This document shows positions 1-10,395 of a DNA stretch of 10,487 nt, one piece after another. Positions within the stretch are counted from its first letter, which is position 1; every line of letters begins with the position of its first letter. The DNA lies in contig CANOCD010000025.1 of the NCBI GenBank assembly GCA_947564495.1, positions 1 to 10,487 on the forward strand. Direction: 5' to 3'. Below the pieces are notes generated by a model that was not told where the DNA came from, made no database searches, and saw only the letters and a program-made list of their open reading frames with translations. The translations under genes were made by a program, and so were the position numbers. Source of the stretch: an uncultured Angelakisella sp. (GTDB lineage Bacteria; Bacillota; Clostridia; Oscillospirales; Ruminococcaceae).

Positions 1-838
1 AGAGGATGTCCGAGCTGTCCAGGCTCCATTCCACGGCCCCGGCGTCGATAAGCTCCTTCATCTCCTTCATGTGGGTCTTGAGGGTCTCGGCGTCCAGGCC
101 GGTGGTGTTGTCCTCCTTGATGAAGGTGCCGCCGAAGTTCTGCATCATGTTGTAGTTCACAGTCTTTTCATTGGCGGCCATGAGGTAGGCAGGCTTGCCG
201 GTGGCCTTGTGGACCTCCATGGCCCAGGTCTTGAACTCGTCCCAGGTGGCGGGGAAGTCGGGGAGGTTTTTCTCCTTGAGGATGTCCTTGTTGTAGTAGT
301 AGACGAAGCAGGAGACGCCGTGGGGCATCCCGAACTGGACCCCGTCGTAGTTGCCCACGCTGAGGAAACCGGGGATGTAGTCGTTCATATCTACCTGGTA
401 GTCGGCCAGGTAGTCATCCAAGGGTTCGGCCACGCCGCTCTGGACGTAGTTGGGCAGGGTGCTGTAGTTGACCACGCTGATGCCGGGGAGGCCGGTCCCT
501 GCGGCCTGAGCCCCGATGATCTGCTCGTTGATGGCGGCGTAGTTGCCCCCGCAGACGGGGACCACCGTCACCTTGTCCTGGGAGGAGTTGAACTCCTCCG
601 CCACCTGGTTATAGAACTCCTCGTTGCCGGAACCGGCGTACCAGAACTCGATGGTGACCGGCTCGGTGACGGCGTGCTTGCTCCCGGGCCCCCCGGGGGT
701 CTCGGGGGCCGGGGAGGCCGCCGGAGAGGCCGGGGCTGGATCGGGGCTGGGGGCGGGCTGGTCTTGGCCGCCGCAGGCGGAAAGGCTCCCCAGGACCAGG
801 GCCGCCATGAGCAATAGGGCGAGTGTTCTGCGTTTCAT
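1..838 (-). CDS. ABC transporter solute-binding lipoprotein, sugar/glycerol-phosphate (UgpB-like) class, 3' part cut by window
   Basis: Extracellular substrate-binding lipoprotein of a carbohydrate-type ABC importer (solute-binding family 1). The ATG at 838 is preceded by GGAGGAGAAAC. The N-terminus is a lipoprotein signal: basic MKRR, a Leu/Ala-rich core and the lipobox LSAC with Cys22 as lipidation site. A Pro/Ala/Ser linker (about residues 27-50) follows. The mature fold then begins with VTIEFWYAGSGNEEFY and continues through GNYAAINEQIIGAQAAG and the fold-typical segment MPHGVSCFVYYYNKDIL. About 279 codons are visible; full-length relatives have about 430-450 residues, so roughly a third lies beyond the window. 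The gene is 73 bp downstream of a glycerophosphodiester phosphodiesterase on the same strand. That context and resemblance to UgpB suggest glycerol-3-phosphate or glycerophosphodiesters as ligand. The class is firm; the ligand is inferred. Confidence 0.9.
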   Translation of the reverse strand, partial: MKRRTLALLLMAALVLGSLSACGGQDQPAPSPDPAPASPAASPAPETPGGPGSKHAVTEPVTIEFWYAGSGNEEFYNQVAEEFNSSQDKVTVVPVCGGNYAAINEQIIGAQAAGTGLPGISVVNYSTLPNYVQSGVAEPLDDYLADYQVDMNDYIPGFLSVGNYDGVQFGMPHGVSCFVYYYNKDILKEKNLPDFPATWDEFKTWAMEVHKATGKPAYLMAANEKTVNYNMMQNFGGTFIKEDNTTGLDAETLKTHMKEMKELIDAGAVEWSLDSSDIL

Positions 839-887
839 TGTTTCTCCTCCGTTCTGATCGTTATTTTTGTGAGTTTACGGTATGTCA

Positions 888-903
888 TTCCCGCCTTCGG
901 GAA
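888..903 (-). other. Small intercistronic hairpin between GDPD-1 and the binding-protein gene
   Basis: A perfect 6-bp stem (TTCCCG/CGGGAA) with a 4-nt loop lies in the 73-bp gap. No U-run follows it on the minus strand, so it is not a convincing terminator. It could adjust mRNA processing or the expression ratio between the two genes. Confidence 0.4.
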
Positions 904-911
904 AGGGTCCT

Positions 912-1766
912 TTATGGAAGGCTCCTGCCGATGGAGGCCAGGTACCGCTTGGCCTCCCAGGGCCAGTCGGTCTGGATGATGTCCACCCCCTTGGCGGCCA
1001 GGACGCCCCAGCTCTTGTCCCCGCCCAGGCGGAGAGCGGCAAGGTCGTCGTACCCCCCGCCGTAGACCAGGCGCTTGGCCAGGCTCAACGAGTTGCACCA
1101 GACCTTGATGTTCCGGCTGTGGAGCCGGTGGAAGATCTCCGGCTGGAAGATGGGGTCGTCGGGGGCCTCAGGCAAAATTTCCAAAGCGGGGATGCGGACG
1201 GTCCGGCCAAGGGCCTCCACCCGGTCCAGGGTGGCCGGGTCCTTGACCATGGGGACGTAGAGGGCGTTCGGGTGGTCCTCCGCAAAGCGGCAGGCGGTTT
1301 CGTTCTCGATGTAGAACTTGAAAAGAGCCTGCCCCGCCATCCCCTTTTCCCGGACCAGGGCGTGGACCTCCTCCCAGCAGTCCCAGCAGCGGTCCAGGGC
1401 CACAAAGGCCCGGTCCTTCAGACTGTCCAGGATGTGGGGGAGGGTATCCAGCCCCTCGGTGCCGATCTCCCCCACGTAGTTATAGAGGGGCAGGCCCCGC
1501 AGCTCCTCCCAGGTGCAGCCGGCCAGGGGCCGGTCCAGGTGGAAGAGGCGGTTCATGGTCTTGTCGTGGTGGCCCACCAGCACCCCGTCCTTTGTCCGGC
1601 TCACGTCCAGCTCCACCAGGTCGGCCCCCTCGTCTAGGGCCAAAAGGCAGGCCAGGGCGGTGTTTTCGATGACGCTGGAGGAAAACTTCCCCCGGTGGGA
1701 CGCCACCGCCACCCGGCCGTCGATCCCCCCGGAGAGCCACGCTTCGGTCTCTTGCCAGCTGCTCAC
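912..1766 (-). CDS. Glycerophosphodiester phosphodiesterase family protein (GDPD-1)
   Basis: Hydrolyses glycerophosphodiesters to glycerol-3-phosphate and an alcohol; predicted TIM barrel. With the start chosen it has 284 residues and no signal peptide, so it is probably cytoplasmic. GDPD signatures are visible: HRG at 24-26, ENT at 34-36, ELD at 52-54 (metal ligands), a His pair plus Asp at 66-68, and near the C-terminus GVDIIQTDWP, equivalent to the family's TNxP end motif. The GTG at 1766 is preferred because GGAGGG lies 7 nt upstream. In-frame ATGs at 1772 and 1781 overlap or sit too near that site, and the ATG at 1871 would add about 35 residues lacking family character. The gene is first in a minus-strand unit with the binding-protein gene, which suggests that imported glycerophosphodiesters are its substrate. 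The family call is secure; the exact substrate is not known. Confidence 0.9.
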   Translation of the reverse strand: MSSWQETEAWLSGGIDGRVAVASHRGKFSSSVIENTALACLLALDEGADLVELDVSRTKDGVLVGHHDKTMNRLFHLDRPLAGCTWEELRGLPLYNYVGEIGTEGLDTLPHILDSLKDRAFVALDRCWDCWEEVHALVREKGMAGQALFKFYIENETACRFAEDHPNALYVPMVKDPATLDRVEALGRTVRIPALEILPEAPDDPIFQPEIFHRLHSRNIKVWCNSLSLAKRLVYGGGYDDLAALRLGGDKSWGVLAAKGVDIIQTDWPWEAKRYLASIGRSLP

Positions 1767-1773
1767 CCGCATT

Positions 1774-1779
1774 CCCTCC
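1774..1779 (-). promoter_or_regulatory. Ribosome binding site deciding the GTG start of GDPD-1
   Basis: GGAGGG on the minus strand, 7 nt before GTG at 1766. It is too close to ATG 1772 (1-nt gap) and lies downstream of ATG 1781, so it favours the GTG. Confidence 0.65.
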
Positions 1780-1872
1780 ATTTCCCCCGGCGCCCCCACG
1801 GGGAGGAGCCGTGATGTTTTTGATGATTTCTTCCGGATTCTTAAAAGGATTCTGTGCGGAATCACCAACATG

Positions 1873-1901
1873 ATTATACAATGTCTTTTGGACGGAATCC
1901 A
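1873..1901 (-). promoter_or_regulatory. Predicted sigma-A promoter of the GDPD-1/binding-protein unit
   Basis: On the minus strand there is a perfect -10 TATAAT (1873-1878) and, 17 bp upstream, a weak -35 TGGATT (1896-1901). The predicted start is near 1866, giving a leader of about 100 nt. A good -10 with a poor -35 fits a promoter that needs an activator, and the direct repeat just upstream fits an AraC-type one. Confidence 0.55.
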
Positions 1902-1904
1902 TAT

Positions 1905-1934
1905 ACGATCATGCTATTTATATGGACGATCCTG
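1905..1934. promoter_or_regulatory. Candidate AraC-type operator: 9-bp direct repeat with 21-bp phasing
   Basis: ACGATCATG at 1905-1913 and ACGATCCTG at 1926-1934 match at 8 of 9 positions and are offset by exactly 21 bp, two helical turns. They lie about 40 to 68 bp upstream of the predicted minus-strand start at 1866, next to the weak -35. Tandem sites with this phasing beside the -35 are usual for AraC-family activators, and such a gene begins at 2149. The assignment is inference. Confidence 0.4.
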
Positions 1935-2029
1935 TTTTTTCGTTTCCGCCCCTAGGGGATGCCGCCCGGGGACAGGGAAGATCCCAGCCGCCCAGGGACA
2001 GCATTATCGGAAAAAGATGGTGTCCTGTC

Positions 2030-2057
2030 TTGCTTTTTGAAGATCCGGTGATATAAT
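2030..2057 (+). promoter_or_regulatory. Predicted sigma-A promoter of the AraC-family gene
   Basis: TTGCTT (2030-2035) and TATAAT (2052-2057) with a 16-bp spacer on the plus strand. The predicted start is near 2064, about 85 nt before the ATG at 2149, and falls inside the inverted repeat at 2059-2084. Confidence 0.5.
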
Positions 2058-2058
2058 C

Positions 2059-2084
2059 AAAGCGGGCCCTCCCAGGCCCGCTTT
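2059..2084. repeat. Perfect 10-bp inverted repeat at the predicted araC-type transcription start
   Basis: Arms AAAGCGGGCC (2059-2068) and GGCCCGCTTT (2075-2084) flank a 6-nt loop. It begins one base after the -10 hexamer. It could be an operator, a 5' hairpin of the leader RNA, or a terminator for minus-direction transcription, since the minus-side flank TTTGATTATAT is U-rich. The sequence does not decide between these. Confidence 0.6.
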
Positions 2085-2148
2085 GCCGCTTTATGGCGAA
2101 ATTTGCTGTTCATATGGATATTTCCGCTTTGGAGGGGAGGAGAGGACA

Positions 2149-3006
2149 ATGATCCGGGTGGCGGGACACGCAAGGAGCACCGGGAGCCGGGTCTTTCCCG
2201 AGGACGCCGGCCGGGAGCTGTTCGTCAACTGCTGCGGCTACCAGCACTTTATGACCAAGGATTTTTCCATCCAGCGCCCCGGGGGGAGGCCGGACTACCA
2301 GCTTCTCTATGTCGCCAAGGGCTGCGGCCACTACTGCCTGGAGGGCCAGTGGACGGTGATGCCGGCGGGGAGCGTCGTCCTTTACCGCCCCCTGGAGCCC
2401 CAGGTCTATCAGTATTTCGCCAAAGAGGACCCGGAGATCTACTGGCTCCACTTTCTGGGCACCCAGAGCGCCGGCCTGCTGGAGCAGTACGGCGTTGCCA
2501 CCGGCTTTGTGGGCCAGCACCAGCACCTCAAACAGCTTTTTGACGAGATCATCCTGGAATGCCAGCTCCGCAAGCCCTGCTTCCAGGAGGTCATCACCGC
2601 CGACTTCCACAAGCTCCTGGCCCTCCTCCACCGGTACTCCCTGGCCCTTGTTTCCTCCCGGGAGGGGGTCACCCAGCTGGAAAAGCTGGTGGCCAGGCTG
2701 AACCGCCACTATATGGACCCCTGGAGCGTCCAGGCCATGGCCGACTACTGCCACCTGAGCGCCGATTACTTCTCCCACCGCTTCAAGGAGTTTACCGGCC
2801 TTTCCCCCATCCAGTTCCTCAATAGCCTGCGGATCGAACGGGCCAAAGAGCTGCTTTTGGCCGAGCACCTCAGTGTCTCGGAGGTGGCCGAGGTGGTGGG
2901 GTATAAGGACCCCCTCTATTTCAGCAAGGTCTTTAAGAAAGCCACCGGGATGTCCCCCAAGCAGTTCCACGGCAACCGGTGGCTCCTGGACGGGACCTCC
3001 TTATAA
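2149..3006 (+). CDS. AraC-family transcriptional regulator
   Basis: DNA-binding regulator of 285 residues, the usual AraC-family size. The N-terminal half (about 25-110) looks like a cupin-type sensor domain: strand-rich, with YQLLYVAKGCGHYCLEG and a segment resembling AGSVVLYRP. The C-terminal 100 residues carry the two helix-turn-helix units: the first about 192-220 (WSVQAMADYCHLSADYFSHRF), the second about 241-273 (LSVSEVAEVVGYKDPLYFSKVF, then KKATGMSPKQF). The start at 2149 is chosen because AGGAG lies 6 nt upstream within a purine-rich tract; the frame is open further upstream (to 2083) but lacks a ribosome site there. The gene sits between two glycerophosphodiester phosphodiesterases, divergent from one and upstream of the other. 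It therefore probably controls this local regulon, most likely as an activator. The effector is unknown; glycerol-3-phosphate or a glycerophosphodiester is a guess. Confidence 0.93.
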   Translation: MIRVAGHARSTGSRVFPEDAGRELFVNCCGYQHFMTKDFSIQRPGGRPDYQLLYVAKGCGHYCLEGQWTVMPAGSVVLYRPLEPQVYQYFAKEDPEIYWLHFLGTQSAGLLEQYGVATGFVGQHQHLKQLFDEIILECQLRKPCFQEVITADFHKLLALLHRYSLALVSSREGVTQLEKLVARLNRHYMDPWSVQAMADYCHLSADYFSHRFKEFTGLSPIQFLNSLRIERAKELLLAEHLSVSEVAEVVGYKDPLYFSKVFKKATGMSPKQFHGNRWLLDGTSL

Positions 3007-3029
3007 ACAAAAAGGCGGCTTTGCCCGCC
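3004..3029 (-). terminator. Rho-independent terminator-like element, functional orientation minus (antisense to its neighbours)
   Basis: Read on the minus strand: GGCGG (3029-3025), a 6-nt loop, CCGCC (3018-3014), then TTTTTGTTTAT. This has the form of an intrinsic terminator. On the plus strand the hairpin is followed by GCAAAAACC and should not terminate. It lies between araC-type gene and GDPD-2, both plus-strand, so it would stop antisense transcription. Confidence 0.55.
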
Positions 3030-3050
3030 GCAAAAACCAGGAGGATGAAT

Positions 3051-4010
3051 ATGCTTGTGATCGCCCATCGGGGGGCGTCTTACCACGCCCCGGAAAACAC
3101 CCTGGCCGCTTTCGCCGCCGCCAAGACCCTGGGGGCCGACGGTTTCGAGACCGACGTGCAGCTTACCCGGGACTGCCGCCTGGTCATCCACCACAACTAC
3201 ACCGTGGACGCCCGGTCCAACGGCACGGGCAGGGTCTGCGACCAGACCCTGGAGCAGCTGCGCCGCCTGGACTTCGGCTCCTGGAAGGACCCGGCCTTCG
3301 CCGGGGAGCGGATTCCTGACCTGGCCGAAGCCCTGGAGGCCGCCCGGGGCTTTTCCTTGATGAACCTGGAGTTGAAGGCCCCTGTCCGCCGGGACGTCCC
3401 CTTTGTGGAGCCGGTGGTCCGGGCCATCCGGGCTGCCGGGCTGGAGGGCCGGGTCCGCCTCTCCTCCTTTGACCTTTCCCTGCTCCGGGAGGCCAAGGCC
3501 CTCTGCCCCGGCATCCGGGCGGGGGTCCTCACCTCCCGGGCGGTGACGGAACGCAATTCTGTCCAGATGCTGGCCCGGCACGCCCCCGGGGACAAGGCCC
3601 TGGGGGAGCTGACCCCCCGGGACCTTCAGCTGCCCCAAGACGACGGGGAGCTCCGAAGGGCGCTGAACAAGCCGGGCCGGGAGCCGGGGGAGGTCCTGCT
3701 GGAGCGGGCCCGGAGCCTGTCTATCCTCTACCCAGGGGCCGCCATCCGGGAGGTCATGGCCCGGTTGGAGGAGCAGCTGGACCTGGCGGGCTTTGTATCC
3801 AAGCTGGATTTCCCGGTGGAATACCTCCACTGCGAGTATCACGCCTGCCTGTCCGACCCCGGCCTGGCGGAGCGGCTGGGCCGCCGGGGGATCGGGGTCA
3901 CCCCCTGGACCCCCGACGAGCCGGAGGACCTCCACGCCCTGGCCGTCATGCCCCTGGACGGCATCATCACCAACCGGCCGGACCGCCTGCTGGAACTGTT
4001 GGGGCGATAG
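3051..4010 (+). CDS. Glycerophosphodiester phosphodiesterase (GDPD-2), with an enlarged central region
   Basis: Second GDPD-family enzyme, 319 residues, no signal peptide, so predicted cytoplasmic and yielding glycerol-3-phosphate. The N-terminus is classic: MLVIAHRGASYHAPENT with HRG at 6-8 and PENT at 14-17, ETD at 33-35 (metal ligands), then IHHN at 46-49, where many relatives have H-D. The end motif IITNRPD near residue 307 is the family's TNxPD. Bacterial GDPDs of this type are often about 240-260 residues. The excess here lies around 165-230, including a charged stretch of DLQLPQDDGELRRALNKPG type with no resemblance I recognise. The start is set by AGGAGG 6 nt before ATG 3051; an in-frame ATG at 3045 directly abuts that site and is less likely. 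It begins 45 bp after the AraC-type gene and is probably cotranscribed with it. Confidence 0.93.
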   Translation: MLVIAHRGASYHAPENTLAAFAAAKTLGADGFETDVQLTRDCRLVIHHNYTVDARSNGTGRVCDQTLEQLRRLDFGSWKDPAFAGERIPDLAEALEAARGFSLMNLELKAPVRRDVPFVEPVVRAIRAAGLEGRVRLSSFDLSLLREAKALCPGIRAGVLTSRAVTERNSVQMLARHAPGDKALGELTPRDLQLPQDDGELRRALNKPGREPGEVLLERARSLSILYPGAAIREVMARLEEQLDLAGFVSKLDFPVEYLHCEYHACLSDPGLAERLGRRGIGVTPWTPDEPEDLHALAVMPLDGIITNRPDRLLELLGR

Positions 4011-4169: not shown

Positions 4170-5333
4170 TCACTGGAAGAACAGCAGCAGCATCCCGGCG
4201 GCCACCGCCGAGCCGATGACCCCGGCCACGTTGGGGCCCATGGCGTGCATCAGCAGGAAGTTGGAGGGGTTGTACTTCTGGCCCTCCTTCTGGACCACAC
4301 GGGCGGCCATGGGGACAGCGGAGACCCCCGCAGCGCCGATCATGGGGTTGATCTTGCCCCCGGTCATCTTGCACATCACCTTGCCCAGCAGCACTCCCCC
4401 GGCGGTGCCCATGCCGAAGGCGATGACGCCCAGGACGATGATCTGGAGGGTCTGGGGGCGCAGGAACATCTCGGCGCTGGCCTTGGCTCCCACGGTGAGG
4501 CCCAGGAGGATGGAGACGATGTACATGAGGGACTTCTGGATGCAGTCCACCAGGAGGGGCACCCGGCCCGACTCCTTCAGGAGGTTCCCCAGCATCAGCA
4601 TCCCGATGAGGGCCCCGGCGCTGGGGAGGAGAAGGACGGTGAAGAGGGTGACCACGATGGGGAAGATGATCTTCTCGGTCTTGCTGACCTCCCGGAGCTG
4701 CTCCATTTTGATGACCCGCTCCTCGGGGGTGGTGAGGAGCTTGATGATGGGGGGCTGGATCACCGGCACCAGGGCCATGTAGCTGTAGGCGGCGATGGCG
4801 ATGGCGCCCAGGAGGTCCGGGGCCAGCTTGCTGGTGAGGTAGAGGGCGGTGGGGCCGTCGGCGCCGCCGATGATGCCGATGGAGGCGGCCTCCGGGCCGG
4901 TGAAGCCCAGGAAGATGGCCCCGAAGAAGGTGGTGAAGATGCCCAGCTGGGCCGCCGCCCCCAGGAGGAGGCTCCGGGGGTTGGCCAGGAGAGGCCCGAA
5001 ATCGGTGCCCGCCCCGATGCAGAGGAAGATGAGGGGCGGGTAGATGCCCAGCTCGGTGCCCTGGTAGAGGTAGTAGAGGAGGCCGCCGTTCTCATCCCCC
5101 ACGGCGTGGGCCATGAGGCCGGCCAGGGGGAGGTTCACCAGCAGCATCCCGAAGGCGATGGGGATGAGCAGGTAGGGCTCGAAGCCCTTGCGGATGGCCA
5201 GGTAGAGGAAGATACAGGCAATGCCGATCATGATGAGCTCCCCGGGGAGCCGCAGACCGAACAGCTCGGTGTTGCACTGGACCAGCTGGGAAAAACCGGT
5301 GCTTTCCCAGAAGCCTTGGAGTAACTCCAGCAT
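4170..5333 (-). CDS. mmdB: Sodium-ion-translocating decarboxylase beta subunit (membrane Na+ pump)
   Basis: Integral membrane subunit that decarboxylates carboxybiotin and couples this to Na+ export (OadB/GcdB/MmdB/MadB family). The 387 residues are mostly hydrophobic membrane segments. The signature GGADGPT is at 156-162. Residues known to matter in Klebsiella OadB (Asp203, Tyr229, Asn373, Gly377, Ser382, Arg389) have equivalents at exactly matching spacing: Asp159, Tyr185, Asn329, Gly333, Ser338 and Arg345, in [10 protein letters not shown] and [20 protein letters not shown]. The pump therefore looks intact. The ATG at 5333 has GGGAGGG 7 nt upstream and lies 14 bp after the biotin-carrier gene, within one operon. 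The symbol follows the gene order and the MmdA partner; sequence alone cannot separate it from gcdB, oadB or madB. Confidence 0.95.
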
Positions 5334-5347
5334 CTGTCAGCCCTCCC

Positions 5348-5728
5348 TTATTGGAGGCTGACCAGCGGATCACCGGCCGCCACAGCGTCGCCCTTCTGGA
5401 CCGAGACCGAGGCCACGGTGCCGTCGGCGGGGGCGACCACCTCGTTTTCCATCTTCATGGCCTCGATGACCACCAGGACCTGGCCGGCCTTCACCGCCTG
5501 CCCCGCCTTGACGGGGACGTCTAGGACGGTGCCCTGGAGGGGGGCGGTGATTGCTCCGGCGACAGCCGCCGGTTTGGGTGCGGCGGCCTTGGGGGCGGCG
5601 GGGGCCGCCACGGGGGCGGGAGCGGCCACGGGGGCGGGGACAGAGAAGACGACAGAAGCGCCCAGCTCCTCCACTTCTACTTCGTGAGCGATGCCGTCCA
5701 GGACGACACGGAATTTCTTGACAGCCAT
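5348..5728 (-). CDS. mmdC: Biotin carboxyl carrier subunit of the decarboxylase
   Basis: Small soluble carrier, 126 residues, that moves the carboxyl group on biotin from the carboxyltransferase to the membrane beta subunit. The N-terminal 30 residues resemble the short head of decarboxylase biotin subunits ([20 protein letters not shown]). A flexible Ala/Pro linker spans about 31-56. The biotinyl domain covers about 58-126, with the biotinylation motif EAMKMEN at 89-95 and Lys92 as acceptor. The linker contains a hexapeptide duplication, VAAPAP-type, encoded by an 18-bp tandem DNA repeat. The ATG at 5728 has GAGGTG about 8 nt upstream. The gene lies 23 bp after the small membrane subunit and 14 bp before the beta subunit. 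Biotinylation needs a BirA ligase encoded elsewhere. Confidence 0.95.
5607..5642. repeat. 18-bp tandem duplication in the Ala/Pro linker of the biotin carrier
   Basis: Two near-identical units (5607-5624 and 5625-5642), each starting GCCACGGGGGCGGG. They encode a repeated Ala/Pro/Val hexapeptide in frame. Copy-number change would only lengthen or shorten the linker. Confidence 0.6.
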
Positions 5729-5751
5729 TTCATTGCACCTCGTTACTGTAA

Positions 5752-6090
5752 TTATTGGATGGTGTTGGTCCTGCCGGACTGGACCCAGGGGCTTTCCTCC
5801 CCGGCCACCCGGCGGATGCTGCGGACGACGAACCGGTCGGTAGTGGTCCCCAGGCAGGCGGCAACAGCGGCGGCGATGAGGACGGCGGCGTGGTCATCCT
5901 TTGCCGGGGCGGGGTCGGAAGCGGGGGCCGTGGCGGGAGCGGCGGCGGGCTTCTTCTCGTTCCGGGTCAAGATCCAGTGCACCAGGTCGATCATGTAGGA
6001 GATGGCCAGCAGGACGAGAAAGACGACGGCCAGACTGAAGCCGCAGACGATAAGGGCCCGGCCCATGGTGATAGTTTCGTTTGCAAACAT
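5752..6090 (-). CDS. mmdD: Small membrane anchor subunit of the sodium-pump decarboxylase (OadG/MmdD/GcdD type)
   Basis: 112-residue subunit that in this family anchors the carboxyltransferase to the membrane pump and aids assembly. One N-terminal transmembrane helix (about 10-34, [20 protein letters not shown]) is followed by an amphipathic/basic stretch, a Pro/Ala linker (about 47-64), and a second conserved region, [14 protein letters not shown] followed by [10 protein letters not shown]. The C-terminal tail WVQSGR is typical of the MmdD/GcdD group. The gene begins 12 bp after the mmdA stop, with GGGGGAG close to ATG 6090, so translation is probably coupled. In Veillonella a further tiny subunit, MmdE, follows this gene. 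None is found here: only 23 bp separate it from the biotin-carrier gene. Confidence 0.9.
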
Positions 6091-6102
6091 ACGGCTCCCC
6101 CC

Positions 6103-7650
6103 TTACAGCGGAATATTCCCGTGCTTCTTCTTGGGGCGGTCCACCCGTTTCCCGGCCAGGGCCTCGAAGGCGCTGATGACCCTTTTTCGGGTCTCGCCGG
6201 GGAGGATGACGTCGTCCACATAGCCCCGGGCGGCGGCCACGTAGGGGTTCATCATGGCATCCTGGTACTCGGCGATCTTTTCCTTCCGCTTGGCGGCGGG
6301 GTCGGCGGCGGCCTTGATCTCCTTGGAGAAGATGATGTTGGCGGCCCCGTCGGCCCCCATGACGGCGATCTCGGCGTCGGGCCAGGCAAAGACCATGTCG
6401 GCCCCCAGGTGCTTGGAGCACATCCCGATGTAGGCCCCGCCGTAGGCTTTCCGGGTGATGACGGTGACCTTGGGGACGGTGGCCTCGCTGTAGGCGTAGA
6501 GCATCTTGGCCCCGTGGCGGATGATGCCCCCCCGCTCCTGCTGGGTGCCGGGGAGGAACCCGGGGACGTCCTCCAGAGTGAGCAGGGGGATGTTGAAGCT
6601 GTCGCAGGTGCGGATGAACCGGGAGGCTTTGTCGGCGGCGTTGATGTCCAGGCACCCGGCCATGGCCTTGGGCTGGCTGGCGATGACGCCGACGGACTTG
6701 CCGTTGAGGCGGATGAAGGCGGTGATGATGTTCCGGGCGAAATACTGCTGGTATTCCATCACTTCGCCGTTGTCGGCCAGGGTCCGGATGACGGTCATCA
6801 TGTCGTAGGGCTTGTTGGGGCTTTCGGGCACGATGTCGTTGAGCAGGGCGTCCTCCCGGTTCAGGTCGTCGGCGCAGCCGTAGACCGGGGCGGGGTCCAG
6901 GTTGTTCTGGGGCAGGTAGCTTAAAAGCTGACGGATCTGGGCGATGCACTCGTCCTCGGTGTCGGCGGAGAAGTGGGCGCAGCCGCTGGTGCCGTTGTGG
7001 GCCATGGAGCCCCCCAGGGATTCGGCGGTGACGTCCTCCCCGGTGACCGCCTTGACGACCTGGGGCCCGGTGATGAACATCTGGCCGGTGCCCTTGACCA
7101 TGAAGATGAAGTCGGTCAAAGCGGGGGAGTAGACGGCGCCCCCGGCGCAGGGGCCCATGATGACGCTGATCTGAGGGATGACCCCCGAGGCCATGGTGTT
7201 GTTGTAGAAGATGCGGCCGTACCCCGCCAGGGCGTCCACCCCTTCCTGGATGCGGGCGCCGCCGGAGTCGTTGATGCAGATCATGGGGGCGCCCGCCTTG
7301 AGGGCGGCCTCCTGGGCCATGGCGATCTTGGCGGCGTGCATCTCCCCAAGGCTCCCCCCGATGACGGTGAAGTCCTGGGCGGCGGCGTAGACCAGCCGCC
7401 CGTCGATGGTGCCGTAGCCGGTGACCACCCCCTCCCCGGGGGCCTCCTTCTTTTCCATGCCGAAGTTCTGGCAGCGGTGCTTCACGAAAAGCCCTGTCTC
7501 CACAAAGCTGTCCTCGTCAAAGAGCTTGACGAGACGCTCCCGGGCGGTCTGCTTGCCGTTCCCGTGCTGCTTTTCGATGGCCTTTTCGCCGCCGCCCAGC
7601 CGCAGCCGGGCCTTGAGTTCCAGCAGTTCCTGCTGTTTCGCGGTTGCCAA
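6103..7650 (-). CDS. mmdA: Biotin-dependent acyl-CoA carboxyltransferase, methylmalonyl-CoA decarboxylase alpha-subunit type
   Basis: Soluble carboxyltransferase, 515 residues, that moves the carboxyl of malonyl- or methylmalonyl-CoA to biotin on the carrier subunit. It matches the MmdA/PccB single-chain crotonase-fold family. The N-half has GGGEKAIEKQH, KQTARERL, NDSGGARIQEGVDALAGYG (127-145) and the oxyanion loop CAGGAVYSPA (168-177). The C-half has QPKAMAGCLD, DVPGFLPGTQQE and a second oxyanion loop in RKAYGGAYIGM (about 400-410). The KKHGNIPL end is the same as Veillonella MmdA from memory. It is distinct from GcdA (about 590 residues) and from the split MdcD/MdcE or MadC/MadD. The start is a TTG at 7650 with AGGAGGG 6 nt upstream; no nearby ATG fits. 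It is followed after 12 bp by the anchor subunit. MmdA-type enzymes accept both malonyl- and methylmalonyl-CoA, so context must decide the physiological substrate. Confidence 0.95.
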   Translation of the reverse strand: MATAKQQELLELKARLRLGGGEKAIEKQHGNGKQTARERLVKLFDEDSFVETGLFVKHRCQNFGMEKKEAPGEGVVTGYGTIDGRLVYAAAQDFTVIGGSLGEMHAAKIAMAQEAALKAGAPMICINDSGGARIQEGVDALAGYGRIFYNNTMASGVIPQISVIMGPCAGGAVYSPALTDFIFMVKGTGQMFITGPQVVKAVTGEDVTAESLGGSMAHNGTSGCAHFSADTEDECIAQIRQLLSYLPQNNLDPAPVYGCADDLNREDALLNDIVPESPNKPYDMMTVIRTLADNGEVMEYQQYFARNIITAFIRLNGKSVGVIASQPKAMAGCLDINAADKASRFIRTCDSFNIPLLTLEDVPGFLPGTQQERGGIIRHGAKMLYAYSEATVPKVTVITRKAYGGAYIGMCSKHLGADMVFAWPDAEIAVMGADGAANIIFSKEIKAAADPAAKRKEKIAEYQDAMMNPYVAAARGYVDDVILPGETRKRVISAFEALAGKRVDRPKKKHGNIPL

Positions 7651-7656
7651 TGCGAT

Positions 7657-7663
7657 CCCTCCT
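7657..7663 (-). promoter_or_regulatory. Strong ribosome binding site deciding the TTG start of mmdA
   Basis: AGGAGGG on the minus strand, 6 nt before TTG at 7650. The encoded N-terminus MATAKQQELL aligns with the usual start of the family, which supports the rare TTG. Confidence 0.75.
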
Positions 7664-7676
7664 GTTGTTCTTTTAT

Positions 7677-7711
7677 GGAGCGCCCCCTCCCCTTCCGAAG
7701 GGGGCGGCTCC
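7677..7711 (-). other. Strong intercistronic hairpin between mdcA and mmdA
   Basis: In the 77-bp gap, GGAGCGCCCCCT (7677-7688) pairs with AGGGGGCGGCTCC (7699-7711) with one bulged base. An alternative inner stem CCCCTT/AAGGGG with a 3-nt loop is also possible. No U-run follows on the minus strand, so it is not a standard terminator. It may stabilise the pump part of the mRNA or set different levels of the transferase and the pump. Confidence 0.6.
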
Positions 7712-7727
7712 TTGTTTTACGAAGCTG

Positions 7728-9362
7728 TTACTTCTTCCTCTGGAACCGTTCGGGCACGTGGTACAGCCCGCCGGAGATCTCGGCGATCTCCTCCAGGGAC
7801 TGGGCGGCCAGCATACTCCGGTTGGCCTTGTCGGGGGAGATGCCCAGGTCCTCGGGGAGGGCCACCTTGCCCCAGGCCCGGTACCGCCGGATCTCGTCGG
7901 GGGTCACCAGGGAGCCGATGGGGGTGCCCTGGGCCACGCTCCCCAGGAGCTTGGTGCGCTCCTCGGCGTTCTGGGCCATGTATAGGTAGGCGATGCCCTG
8001 CTCGGTGACCACGTGGGTCACGTCCTCGCCGTAGATCATCACCGGCACCCCCTGGAGGTTGGCCTTGCGGCCGATGTCCACGGCGTCCAGCACCGGGGTG
8101 AAGGCGGGGCCGAACTTGCTGGCGCTCTTGGTCATCTGGACCACCAGCTTGCGCCCCGAGATGAGGGAGCCGTTCTGGGGGGCGCAGTTGCACCAGGCTT
8201 TGGTGGTGTGGCGGCGGCCGCCGGTGCTGTTGCCCATGTTGGGGGCGCCGCCGAAGCCGCTGAGCCGCCCGTTGGTGACGGTGGAGGAGTTGCCCAGGTA
8301 GTCCATCTGGAGGGTGCCCCCCAGGAAGAGGTCGATGCCGTAGAGTCCCGCCATCTGGGCCACCGCCCGGTTGGACCGCAGGTTCCCGTCGGGGCCGCAG
8401 AAGAAGACGTCGGGACGGGCGGTTGCGTAGTCGTTCATCCCCAGCTCCCCGCCGAAGGCGCAGATCTGCTGGACCCAGCCGTCCTCGATGGCGGGGATGA
8501 GGGTGGGATGGGGGTTGAGGACCCAGTGGGTGCAGATCCGGCCCTTGAGCCCCAGCTCGTTGCCGTAGGTGGGCAGCAGCAGCTCGATGGCCGCCCCGTT
8601 GTAGCCGATGCCGTGGTTGAGGGTCTTGACCTCGTGCTTGGCGTAGATGCCCTTGATGACCATCATCCCCATGAGGACGTGGGCGTCCTGGATCTTGGCG
8701 GGGTCCCGGGTGAAGAGGGGCTCCATGGGGTAGGGCTCGTCGGCTTTGACGATGTAGTCCACCCACCCGGCGGGGACGTCCACCCGGGGCAGCTCGTCGG
8801 TCTCCACGATCTCGTTGACCTGGGCGATGACGATGCCGTTCTTGAAGGCGGTGGCCTCCACGATGATGGGGGTCTCCTCGGTGTTGTAGCCGGTGTAGAG
8901 CCGCCCGTATTTGTCGGCCTTGTCCGCCGCCACCAGGCAGATCTGGGGGGTCAGGTCCACGAAGAACCGGCCGTAGAGCTCCATGTAGGTGTGGATGGCC
9001 CCGATCCGCAGCTTCTCGTCGGCCAGCATCTGGGCCAGGCGGAGGCTCTGCACCCCGGCAAAGGCGAAGTTCAGCTCCTTGGCGATGCCCCGCTCAAAGA
9101 GGTCCAGATGCTCGTCCCGGGAGATAGAGGGGATGAGCATATTGAGGCTATGTACCTTCTCCGGGTCCACCCGGGTCAGGGCCCCGGCCAGGAAGGCTGC
9201 CTGCTTTTGGTTGCAACCCTCCAGCACCACCTTGTCCCCGGGATGGATGACCCCCTCCAGGAAGGGGACGATGCTGGCGGTGTCCACCACCTTGCCGTCG
9301 GCGTACCGCTTTCCGGCTTCCTTTCGTTCCAGCTTGGATCTTCTCTCGTTGTCCCAGACCAT
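7728..9362 (-). CDS. mdcA: Malonate decarboxylase alpha subunit (malonate CoA/ACP transferase)
   Basis: 544-residue transferase, close to the usual 550 of MdcA/MadA. In known malonate decarboxylases this subunit swaps the acetyl group of the acyl-carrier thioester for malonate, giving malonyl thioester and acetate. Segments I recognise from MdcA: PGDKVVLEGCNQKQAAFLAG (41-60), SRDEHLDLFERGIAKEL (81-97), GAIHTYMELYGR (121-132), NTEETPIIVEATAF (160-173), TLNHGIGYNGAAIELLLPTYG (247-267), NPHPTLIPAIEDGWV, GFGGAPNMG (369-377), YGEDVTHVVTEQGIAYLY (444-461). ATG 9362 has AAAGGAGA 8 nt upstream; an in-frame TTG at 9404 lies before that site and is rejected. The gene heads the operon with mmdADCB. No ACP gene or MdcD/MdcE is present, so CoA rather than ACP is the likely acyl carrier; this is inference. 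A broader CoA-transferase role is the alternative. Confidence 0.92.
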   Translation of the reverse strand: MVWDNERRSKLERKEAGKRYADGKVVDTASIVPFLEGVIHPGDKVVLEGCNQKQAAFLAGALTRVDPEKVHSLNMLIPSISRDEHLDLFERGIAKELNFAFAGVQSLRLAQMLADEKLRIGAIHTYMELYGRFFVDLTPQICLVAADKADKYGRLYTGYNTEETPIIVEATAFKNGIVIAQVNEIVETDELPRVDVPAGWVDYIVKADEPYPMEPLFTRDPAKIQDAHVLMGMMVIKGIYAKHEVKTLNHGIGYNGAAIELLLPTYGNELGLKGRICTHWVLNPHPTLIPAIEDGWVQQICAFGGELGMNDYATARPDVFFCGPDGNLRSNRAVAQMAGLYGIDLFLGGTLQMDYLGNSSTVTNGRLSGFGGAPNMGNSTGGRRHTTKAWCNCAPQNGSLISGRKLVVQMTKSASKFGPAFTPVLDAVDIGRKANLQGVPVMIYGEDVTHVVTEQGIAYLYMAQNAEERTKLLGSVAQGTPIGSLVTPDEIRRYRAWGKVALPEDLGISPDKANRSMLAAQSLEEIAEISGGLYHVPERFQRKK

Positions 9363-9424: not shown

Positions 9425-9453
9425 ATCATATCATTGACATTTAATAGCGTCCA
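9425..9453 (-). promoter_or_regulatory. Predicted promoter of the mdcA-mmdADCB operon
   Basis: On the minus strand TGGACG (9448-9453), 17-bp spacer, TATGAT (9425-9430). The predicted start is near 9418, about 55 nt before the mdcA ATG. The -35 matches consensus at 4 of 6 positions, as expected for an activator-dependent promoter. It overlaps the lysR-type promoter on the other strand. Confidence 0.55.
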
Positions 9454-9462
9454 ATATATAAT
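9434..9462 (+). promoter_or_regulatory. Consensus sigma-A promoter of the LysR-family gene
   Basis: Perfect TTGACA (9434-9439), 17-bp spacer, perfect TATAAT (9457-9462). It should be strong unless repressed. The start is near 9469, giving a leader of about 45 nt to ATG 9514. Confidence 0.75.
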
Positions 9463-9513: not shown

Positions 9514-10395
9514 ATGATGGATCTTCACTCCCTGATCTACTTTAAGAAGGTGGCGGAGCTCCAGCATCTGACCCGGGCGGCGGAGGAGCTCCGGGTGGCC
9601 CAGCCATCCCTGAGCCGGACCATCGCCGCCCTGGAGGCGGACCTGGGGGTGAAGCTCTTTGACAGGGTGGGCAAGGGCATCGTCCTCAACCGGAACGGGG
9701 CCATTCTGCTGCGCCGCACCAACAACGCCCTCCGGGAGTTGGAGGACGCCCGGCGGGAGCTGGCCGACCAGGAGGCGGAGGAGAACCGGACGGTGACCGT
9801 CTCCCTCTTTGCCGCCAGCAAGCTCCTGCCCCAGCTCATCTCCGCCTTCAAGGAGGAGTACCCCCATATCCGCCTCCAGATCGTCCAGCACGACCTCCGG
9901 GACCAGGGGGAGGGGGAGCGGGACATCGCCATCTTCTCCTCCATGCAGCCCGCCACCGGGGAAAACCAGCGGGTCCTCATCGGGGAGGAGCTGCTCCTGG
10001 CCCTCCCCGAGGACAGCCCCCTGGCCAGCCGCCGGGAACTGCTCCTTTCCGACACGGCGGGGATGGAGTTCATCTGCCTCCACAAGGGGAAGTCCCTGCG
10101 GACCATCACCGACCTCTACTGCCAGATGGCGGGGTTTTCCCCAAAGGTGGTCCTGGAGTGCGACAGCCCCGAGACGGTGCGGGAACTGATCTGCGCCGGG
10201 ATGGGCATCTCCTTTGTCCCCTCCATCACCTGGCACGGGATGGACACCAAGAACATCGTCCTCCGCCACCTCTCCTGCCCGGTCTGCAAGCGGTACATCA
10301 ACCTGAGCTGGCGGAGCAAGGGGTACCTTTCCCCGGCGGTGATCCTTTTTCGGGATTTCGTCCAGGACTACTTTGCCGTGCTGGGCCAGCCGTGA
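9514..10395 (+). CDS. LysR-family transcriptional regulator of the divergent malonate operon
   Basis: 293-residue LysR-type regulator of normal length. The winged helix-turn-helix is N-terminal (about 1-60: MMDLHSLIYFKKVAELQHLT, RAAEELRVAQPSLSRTIAALE, DLGVKLFDR). A linker helix rich in Arg/Glu follows (about 62-90). The C-terminal effector-binding domain (about 95-290) starts TVTVSLFAASKLLPQLISAF and includes AGMGISFVPS, typical of the periplasmic-binding-protein-like fold. ATG 9514 is chosen because GGAGGG lies 8 nt upstream (9500-9505); the frame upstream to 9463 overlaps the promoter and is not used. The gene is divergent from mdcA with overlapping promoters, the classic LysR arrangement. 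It probably activates the operon in response to malonate or malonyl-CoA, as MdcR does in other bacteria; the effector is inferred. Confidence 0.93.
   Translation: MMDLHSLIYFKKVAELQHLTRAAEELRVAQPSLSRTIAALEADLGVKLFDRVGKGIVLNRNGAILLRRTNNALRELEDARRELADQEAEENRTVTVSLFAASKLLPQLISAFKEEYPHIRLQIVQHDLRDQGEGERDIAIFSSMQPATGENQRVLIGEELLLALPEDSPLASRRELLLSDTAGMEFICLHKGKSLRTITDLYCQMAGFSPKVVLECDSPETVRELICAGMGISFVPSITWHGMDTKNIVLRHLSCPVCKRYINLSWRSKGYLSPAVILFRDFVQDYFAVLGQP

Follow-up and report, generated by a model that had tools for sequence, protein, structure and literature searches.

A malonate transferase gene joined to a biotin-dependent sodium pump: a likely malonate decarboxylase working on free coenzyme A

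A stretch of 10,487 nucleotides from an uncultured Angelakisella sp. (contig CANOCD010000025.1, here called the window) carries mdcA, the gene of a malonate transferase, at the head of mmdA, mmdD, mmdC and mmdB, the genes of a methylmalonyl-CoA decarboxylase-type sodium pump, and this hybrid operon raises the question of how a transferase known from systems with an acyl carrier protein (ACP) could work together with such a pump. We consider it likely that the operon encodes a malonate decarboxylase that uses free coenzyme A (CoA) and conserves energy as a sodium gradient, a reading based on gene order and its conservation, on residue patterns and on the absence of rival genes.

In the proposed cycle, MdcA would use acetyl-CoA as the CoA donor for malonate and so form malonyl-CoA and acetate. 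By analogy with its family, MmdA would then pass the carboxyl group of malonyl-CoA to the biotin of MmdC, freeing acetyl-CoA for the next round, and MmdB, held by MmdD, would decarboxylate the carboxybiotin and export Na+, so that the net reaction would be malonate to acetate and CO2. Isolated MdcA of ACP systems is reported to be active on CoA thioesters in vitro, and malonate decarboxylation yields about the energy needed for one or two Na+. The original prediction had read the operon as a CoA-based malonate cycle of this kind, and the analysis supports it; activity on CoA thioesters, acceptance of malonyl-CoA and coupling to Na+ are the parts that we infer.

Gene order and spread of the mdcA-mmd operon

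The five genes run on the minus strand from 9362 to 4170, separated by 77, 12, 23 and 14 bases. Their coordinates proved exact as originally predicted, and profile searches agreed with all the gene names given there:

7728 to 9362, minus strand: mdcA, MdcA-type malonate transferase (PF16957, TIGR01110), a proposed acetyl-CoA:malonate CoA-transferase with the malonate pocket kept and Phe424 replaced by Ala
6103 to 7650, minus strand: mmdA, carboxyltransferase subunit (PF01039, TIGR01117) in a clade of its own, with malonyl-CoA as proposed substrate
5752 to 6090, minus strand: mmdD, small membrane subunit of the OAD_gamma type (PF04277, 43.8 bits; cut-off 27)
5348 to 5728, minus strand: mmdC, biotin carrier (PF00364) with an AMKM site at residues 90-93
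4170 to 5333, minus strand: mmdB, by family a membrane carboxybiotin decarboxylase and Na+ pump (PF03977, TIGR01109), with its stop at 4170

The ATG of mdcA at 9362 is preceded by a ribosome-site-like stretch, and the full-length product aligns with the solved Pseudomonas MdcA along its entire length, matching PF16957 with an E value of 1.1e-246 and TIGR01110 with 794.6 bits, barely over the cut-off of 789.15. MmdA matches PF01039 and reaches 875.6 bits against TIGR01117, under a cut-off of 998.8 that was reached by none of 60 genomes bearing methylmalonyl-CoA mutase as well. MmdD and MmdC fall under the NCBIfam equivalog cut-offs for the delta and gamma subunits of methylmalonyl-CoA decarboxylase, respectively. 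MmdB has an OAD_beta match and exceeds the cut-off of TIGR01109 (491.8 against 190.6 bits), staying far under that of the MadB profile TIGR03136 (173.6 against 596.9 bits). The alpha, beta, gamma (biotin) and delta subunit types of Mmd/Oad-type decarboxylase sodium pumps are thus all represented in the operon. MmdB further aligns with 6iva, the beta subunit of an oxaloacetate pump, for which Asp203, Ser382 and Asn412 are given as Na+-binding residues (PMC7274780). The window's protein keeps the equivalents of all three (by our own count on this alignment), and the Na+ site motifs are present in all 24 hybrid MmdB from other genomes. The biotin site was found in 27 of 28 MmdC matches, the exception being a fragment at a contig end.

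Scanning species genomes with MdcA yielded 40 loci (L002-L041). This search for mdcA adjoining mmd genes, which the original prediction had called for, found mmdA directly after mdcA at 29 loci (L002, L004-L030, L041; the hybrid loci), 24 of which continue through to mmdB; four others end in or just past mdcA at a contig end (L003, L038-L040) and seven are of other types (L031-L037). The mmdD product was unmatched in two of the 24 (L018, L021), which have an mmdD-sized gap at that place. Because the same gene order recurs in 29 of 40 loci, the operon is not a product of chance, and chance or mis-assembled neighbours were ruled out as an explanation. At one locus (L017, 5008-6158), mmdB was matched as two overlapping pieces, and its frame may therefore be interrupted or mis-sequenced.

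Hosts of the operon belong to five families in two phyla, namely Oscillospiraceae (Angelakisella, Ruthenibacterium), Erysipelotrichaceae (many named Solobacterium), Lachnospiraceae, which include the isolate Hungatella effluvii DSM 24995, Clostridiaceae, and Spirochaetaceae with a single metagenome-assembled genome (MAG). The distribution is patchy. Full-length MdcA occurs in two of 295 genomes sampled from the order, the window's own and one of Mad type, and in six of 398 sampled from the phylum (one split over two contigs), where every full-length MdcA except the window's own adjoins an ACP gene. Within the family of an Erysipelotrichaceae MAG, 17 of 272 genomes hold a near-complete MdcA and three more hold pieces, a count of MdcA presence in which the neighbouring genes are known for the loci already fetched. 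Hybrid MdcA (the window's and those of the 29 loci) form one clade among 51 sequences (100/100), and the corresponding MmdA form one clade apart from 30 MmdA of mutase-bearing genomes (100/100).

The malonate pocket and the ACP face of MdcA

In Pseudomonas MdcA, malonate is held by Arg341, Asn292, Gln345 and Phe312, with Asn59, Tyr134 and Gly381 nearby and Arg228 close to the diphosphate, and F424A is described as the sole MdcA interface point mutation that broke the tetramer (PMC5534430). Transferring these positions via the alignment with the solved protein, we found all seven malonate-contact residues, and Arg228 too, conserved throughout the 30 hybrid MdcA and the 16 rows that were initially assigned to the ACP-linked class; among six other MdcA rows, one (L036) differs at position 345.

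The ACP face shows a different pattern. Phe424 is present in all 15 MdcA with a neighbouring ACP gene (eight Mad-type, seven Mdc-type) and in both solved MdcA, and in none of the 30 hybrid proteins, which carry Ser, Ala, Arg, Lys or Gln instead; the window's MdcA has Ala, the same change that disrupted the Pseudomonas complex. Two further positions separate the groups: 466, where all 30 hybrids have Gln and the 15 ACP-linked proteins have Glu or Val, and 490, where 29 of the 30 hybrids have Gly and the ACP-linked proteins have Tyr, Val, Phe or Ile. Positions 521 and 500 were dropped as ACP markers, being variable among ACP-linked proteins too. The class of 15 was reached by removing a sixteenth row, Rhodococcus L101 (Gln at 424), post hoc after a check of its neighbours, which found no ACP gene and no MdcD match nearby and no PF06857 in the plasmid record. 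This residue pattern makes the ACP-free proposal more than a guess; the MdcA of the operon has lost a key residue of its ACP face, which goes beyond what the original prediction had proposed.

Other MdcA without Phe424 and without an ACP are those of Bradyrhizobium L105 and of L032, L034, L036 and L035. On the plasmid of Bradyrhizobium sp. CB82 (L105, 2399-5336), mdcA is directly followed by a malonyl-CoA decarboxylase gene (PF05292), and the search for an ACP, which covered the plasmid record, found none; this may be a second kind of CoA-based pairing. At L032, L034 and L036 (Caldiserica, Elusimicrobia and an unclassified bacterium), whose genomes gave no ACP, the neighbour of mdcA is, by clustering (c26), a gene for a carbon-nitrogen hydrolase, with L032 the one tested for PF00795, and in H. 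effluvii a gene with PF00795 stands some 3 kb ahead of mdcA; a hydrolase in this position may make malonate from an amide or nitrile. The mdcA of the Rhodococcus sp. JS3073 plasmid (L101, 2381-5022) adjoins an AEC-type transporter gene. L069 and L070 apparently show another mixture of parts: together with mdcA they have an MdcD-like gene, an ACP of the MdcC type (tested for L069), a small biotin protein and a beta subunit that resembles those of Oad/Mmd. By our own reading of the MdcA tree, Phe424 and the ACP gene would have been lost together in about four places.

Carrier protein, pump substrate and direction

Whether an ACP system is encoded elsewhere was a question that the original prediction had left to a genome search. 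PF06857 carriers were not found in 11 of 19 hybrid genomes (the window's 59% complete genome and 10 of 18 others), and nine of the 19 gave no hit to either PF06857 or PF01874 (CitG/MdcB family), among them the 6.9 Mb genome of the isolate H. effluvii; two Mad-type genomes searched in parallel were positive for both. Eight of the 19 do hold a carrier. Hybrid loci gave no MdcC reference match at E 1e-4, a match that the Mad-type loci L031, L033, L042, L067-L070 and L100 do give, and MdcD references hit them weakly (26-34% identity) and where MmdA lies; mmdADCB follow the hybrid mdcA, with no separate MdcD or MdcE genes adjoining it.

Several points weigh against a CoA-based decarboxylase. Since hybrid MdcA form one clade, the lack of Phe424 in all 30 amounts to one evolutionary event. 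PF06857 carriers, 11 in total, are present in those eight genomes, and a PF01874 protein in 10 of the 19, the window's included (a CitG-like gene at 251-1039 of contig C193, for which this incomplete genome yielded no ACP partner). At 59% completeness the absences from the window's genome are weak, and completeness values are lacking for most other hybrid genomes. The search for MadM, which is a subunit of a malonate transporter, gave nothing in 12 of the 19 genomes. Finally, methylmalonyl-CoA mutase is missing from 203 of 398 genomes of the phylum sample as well (195 have it), so its absence rules out one source of substrate and is not specific.

The carriers and PF01874 proteins would fit a reading in which MdcA still acts on an ACP, borrowed as CitD from citrate lyase or encoded elsewhere, and the pump takes malonyl-ACP. 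We consider this improbable, given that both families are missing from nine hybrid genomes, that of H. effluvii included, that Phe424 of the ACP face is gone throughout the hybrids, and that most of the carriers fetched point to citrate lyase: of these eight, three are CitD by hidden Markov model, all of those so classified, and four more sit with CitE- or CitF-like frames (read by eye), one (L056) being left unclassified, and no fetched carrier locus matched an MdcC or MdcD reference at E 1e-4. The pump might instead serve methylmalonyl-CoA, as in Veillonella, or another acyl-CoA, in which case MdcA would transfer CoA to some other acid and be no more than an operon neighbour; MmdADCB are, after all, named after methylmalonyl-CoA decarboxylase, and MmdA matches TIGR01117. 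Against this unlikely alternative stand the malonate-contact residues, identical in 30 of 30 MdcA, the MadL and MadM genes near mdcA at four loci, and the check for methylmalonyl-CoA mutase (PF01642), which found it in none of the 19 hybrid genomes and makes malonyl-CoA the likely substrate of the pump. In 18 of these genomes the operon's MmdA is the sole one above 800 bits. Residue 408 of MmdA, which we take to be the equivalent of the propionyl/acetyl specificity position, was rejected as a substrate predictor because the Ile found in 30 of 30 hybrids also occurs in eight of 30 proteins from mutase genomes, and propionyl-CoA carboxylase 3n6r has Val.

A last alternative is that the operon runs in reverse, a Na+ gradient driving carboxylation of acetyl-CoA to malonyl-CoA, and MdcA releasing malonate or feeding fatty acid synthesis. 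Reversal of such a pump on acetyl-CoA was reportedly the subject of a 1984 paper by Dimroth and Hilpert, whose title suggests that an Mmd-type pump can handle acetyl-CoA. Reverse operation nevertheless seems very unlikely: partial AccD- and AccA-type matches on contig C2 suggest that the window's genome has its own acetyl-CoA carboxylase, and MadM-type malonate transporter genes accompany the operon in seven of 19 genomes, the window's among them (contig C134). A malonate decarboxylase running on free CoA thus remains our preferred reading.

At L012, L014, L016 and L023, mdcA has MadL and MadM genes no more than 3.5 kb away, and at L012 MadM scores over its NCBIfam cut-off and MadL slightly under. 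AEC-type carriers were placed near mdcA by clustering at six loci, and both of those tested match TIGR00946 under its cut-off. Two Clostridiaceae loci have an amidase-like gene (by eye) after mmdB (L028, 13527-15044; L029, from 13536), which is possibly a source of malonate.

Regulation and relation to known systems

Two features lie upstream of mdcA:

9514 to 10395, plus strand: divergent gene of a LysR-type regulator (PF00126, PF03466), with an ATG at 9514 after a ribosome-site-like stretch in a frame open from 9463
9425 to 9460, minus strand: element of 36 bases before mdcA, conserved in L002-L006 and L041 and containing a promoter-like match

In 21 of 33 hybrid or cut-off loci, a divergent upstream gene encodes a LysR protein that shares at least 40% identity with that of the window. 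The 36-base element has 3 to 8 mismatches in L002-L006 and H. effluvii and 10 in L013, and no match within 10 mismatches was found in the remaining loci up to L041. The promoter match inside it agrees at 9 of 12 positions, and that on the LysR side is perfect; the promoter search gave 3 matches in 6.6 kb against 0.7 expected. The LysR protein probably controls the operon via this conserved element. At the other end of the window (1-4010), the minus strand encodes a solute-binding protein and GDPD, and the plus strand carries another GDPD gene together with one for an AraC regulator; this is probably a glycerophosphodiester or sugar-uptake region unrelated to the operon.

The hybrid operon shares features with three known systems. 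Soluble malonate decarboxylase (MdcACDE of Pseudomonas, Klebsiella and Acinetobacter) has the same MdcA family with an identical malonate pocket and the overall reaction of malonate to acetate and CO2 that is proposed here, but it relies on the ACP MdcC with its CoA-like group and on biotin-independent MdcD-MdcE, whereas the hybrid operon has no ACP, MdcD or MdcE beside mdcA and a membrane biotin pump in their place. The Mad system (Malonomonas rubra, and in this analysis an R. capsulatus plasmid, L100, among others) likewise joins an MdcA-family transferase to a biotin-dependent Na+ pump, which in the hybrid operon, as in Mad, would be driven by malonate decarboxylation. It differs in having an ACP and separate MadC/MadD-type subunits where the hybrid operon has no ACP and a one-piece MmdA, and the hybrid MmdB is nearer to the Mmd/Oad beta family than to MadB. 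With methylmalonyl-CoA decarboxylase (Veillonella, Propionigenium) the operon shares all four subunit types, in contrast to which its pump genes are joined to mdcA, occur in genomes without methylmalonyl-CoA mutase and encode an MmdA in a separate clade from that of 30 mutase genomes.

Malonate degradation via malonyl-CoA is reportedly the subject of a 1994 paper by Dehning and Schink, which, compared by its title alone, shares malonyl-CoA as a stated intermediate. One of the species in that title is R. capsulatus, whose strain SB 1003 has a Mad-type operon with an ACP, so the title need not mean an ACP-free system. A literature search whose coverage excluded most subscription journals found no title naming an mdcA-mmd operon and no paper containing both mdcA and mmdA. 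The parts are known and the chemistry may not be new, but the gene system appears to be new and its ACP-free assembly undescribed.

Taken jointly, we regard two wider proposals as more probable than otherwise. The operon would encode a malonate decarboxylase of a third kind, one that needs no ACP and pumps Na+, found across gut and rumen Bacillota and a spirochaete. The family annotated as malonate decarboxylase subunit alpha would divide into ACP-transferases that keep Phe424 and true malonate CoA-transferases, which serve different uses of malonyl-CoA and whose ACP face was lost some four times: in the hybrid clade, in a Rhodococcus, in a Bradyrhizobium with malonyl-CoA decarboxylase alongside, and in a group of which part is linked to carbon-nitrogen hydrolases. 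The system is directly testable because a named isolate, H. effluvii DSM 24995, has the operon and no detected carrier protein. If the proposal is true, residue 424 would give a one-residue marker for re-annotating MdcA proteins, and the transferase would offer a compact way of making malonyl-CoA from malonate. Plain CoA would then suffice for malonate to drive a sodium gradient, with no dedicated prosthetic group and with five genes in place of the longer mad or mdc clusters, which would suggest what some little-known bacteria of the gut and rumen feed on and how they conserve energy.

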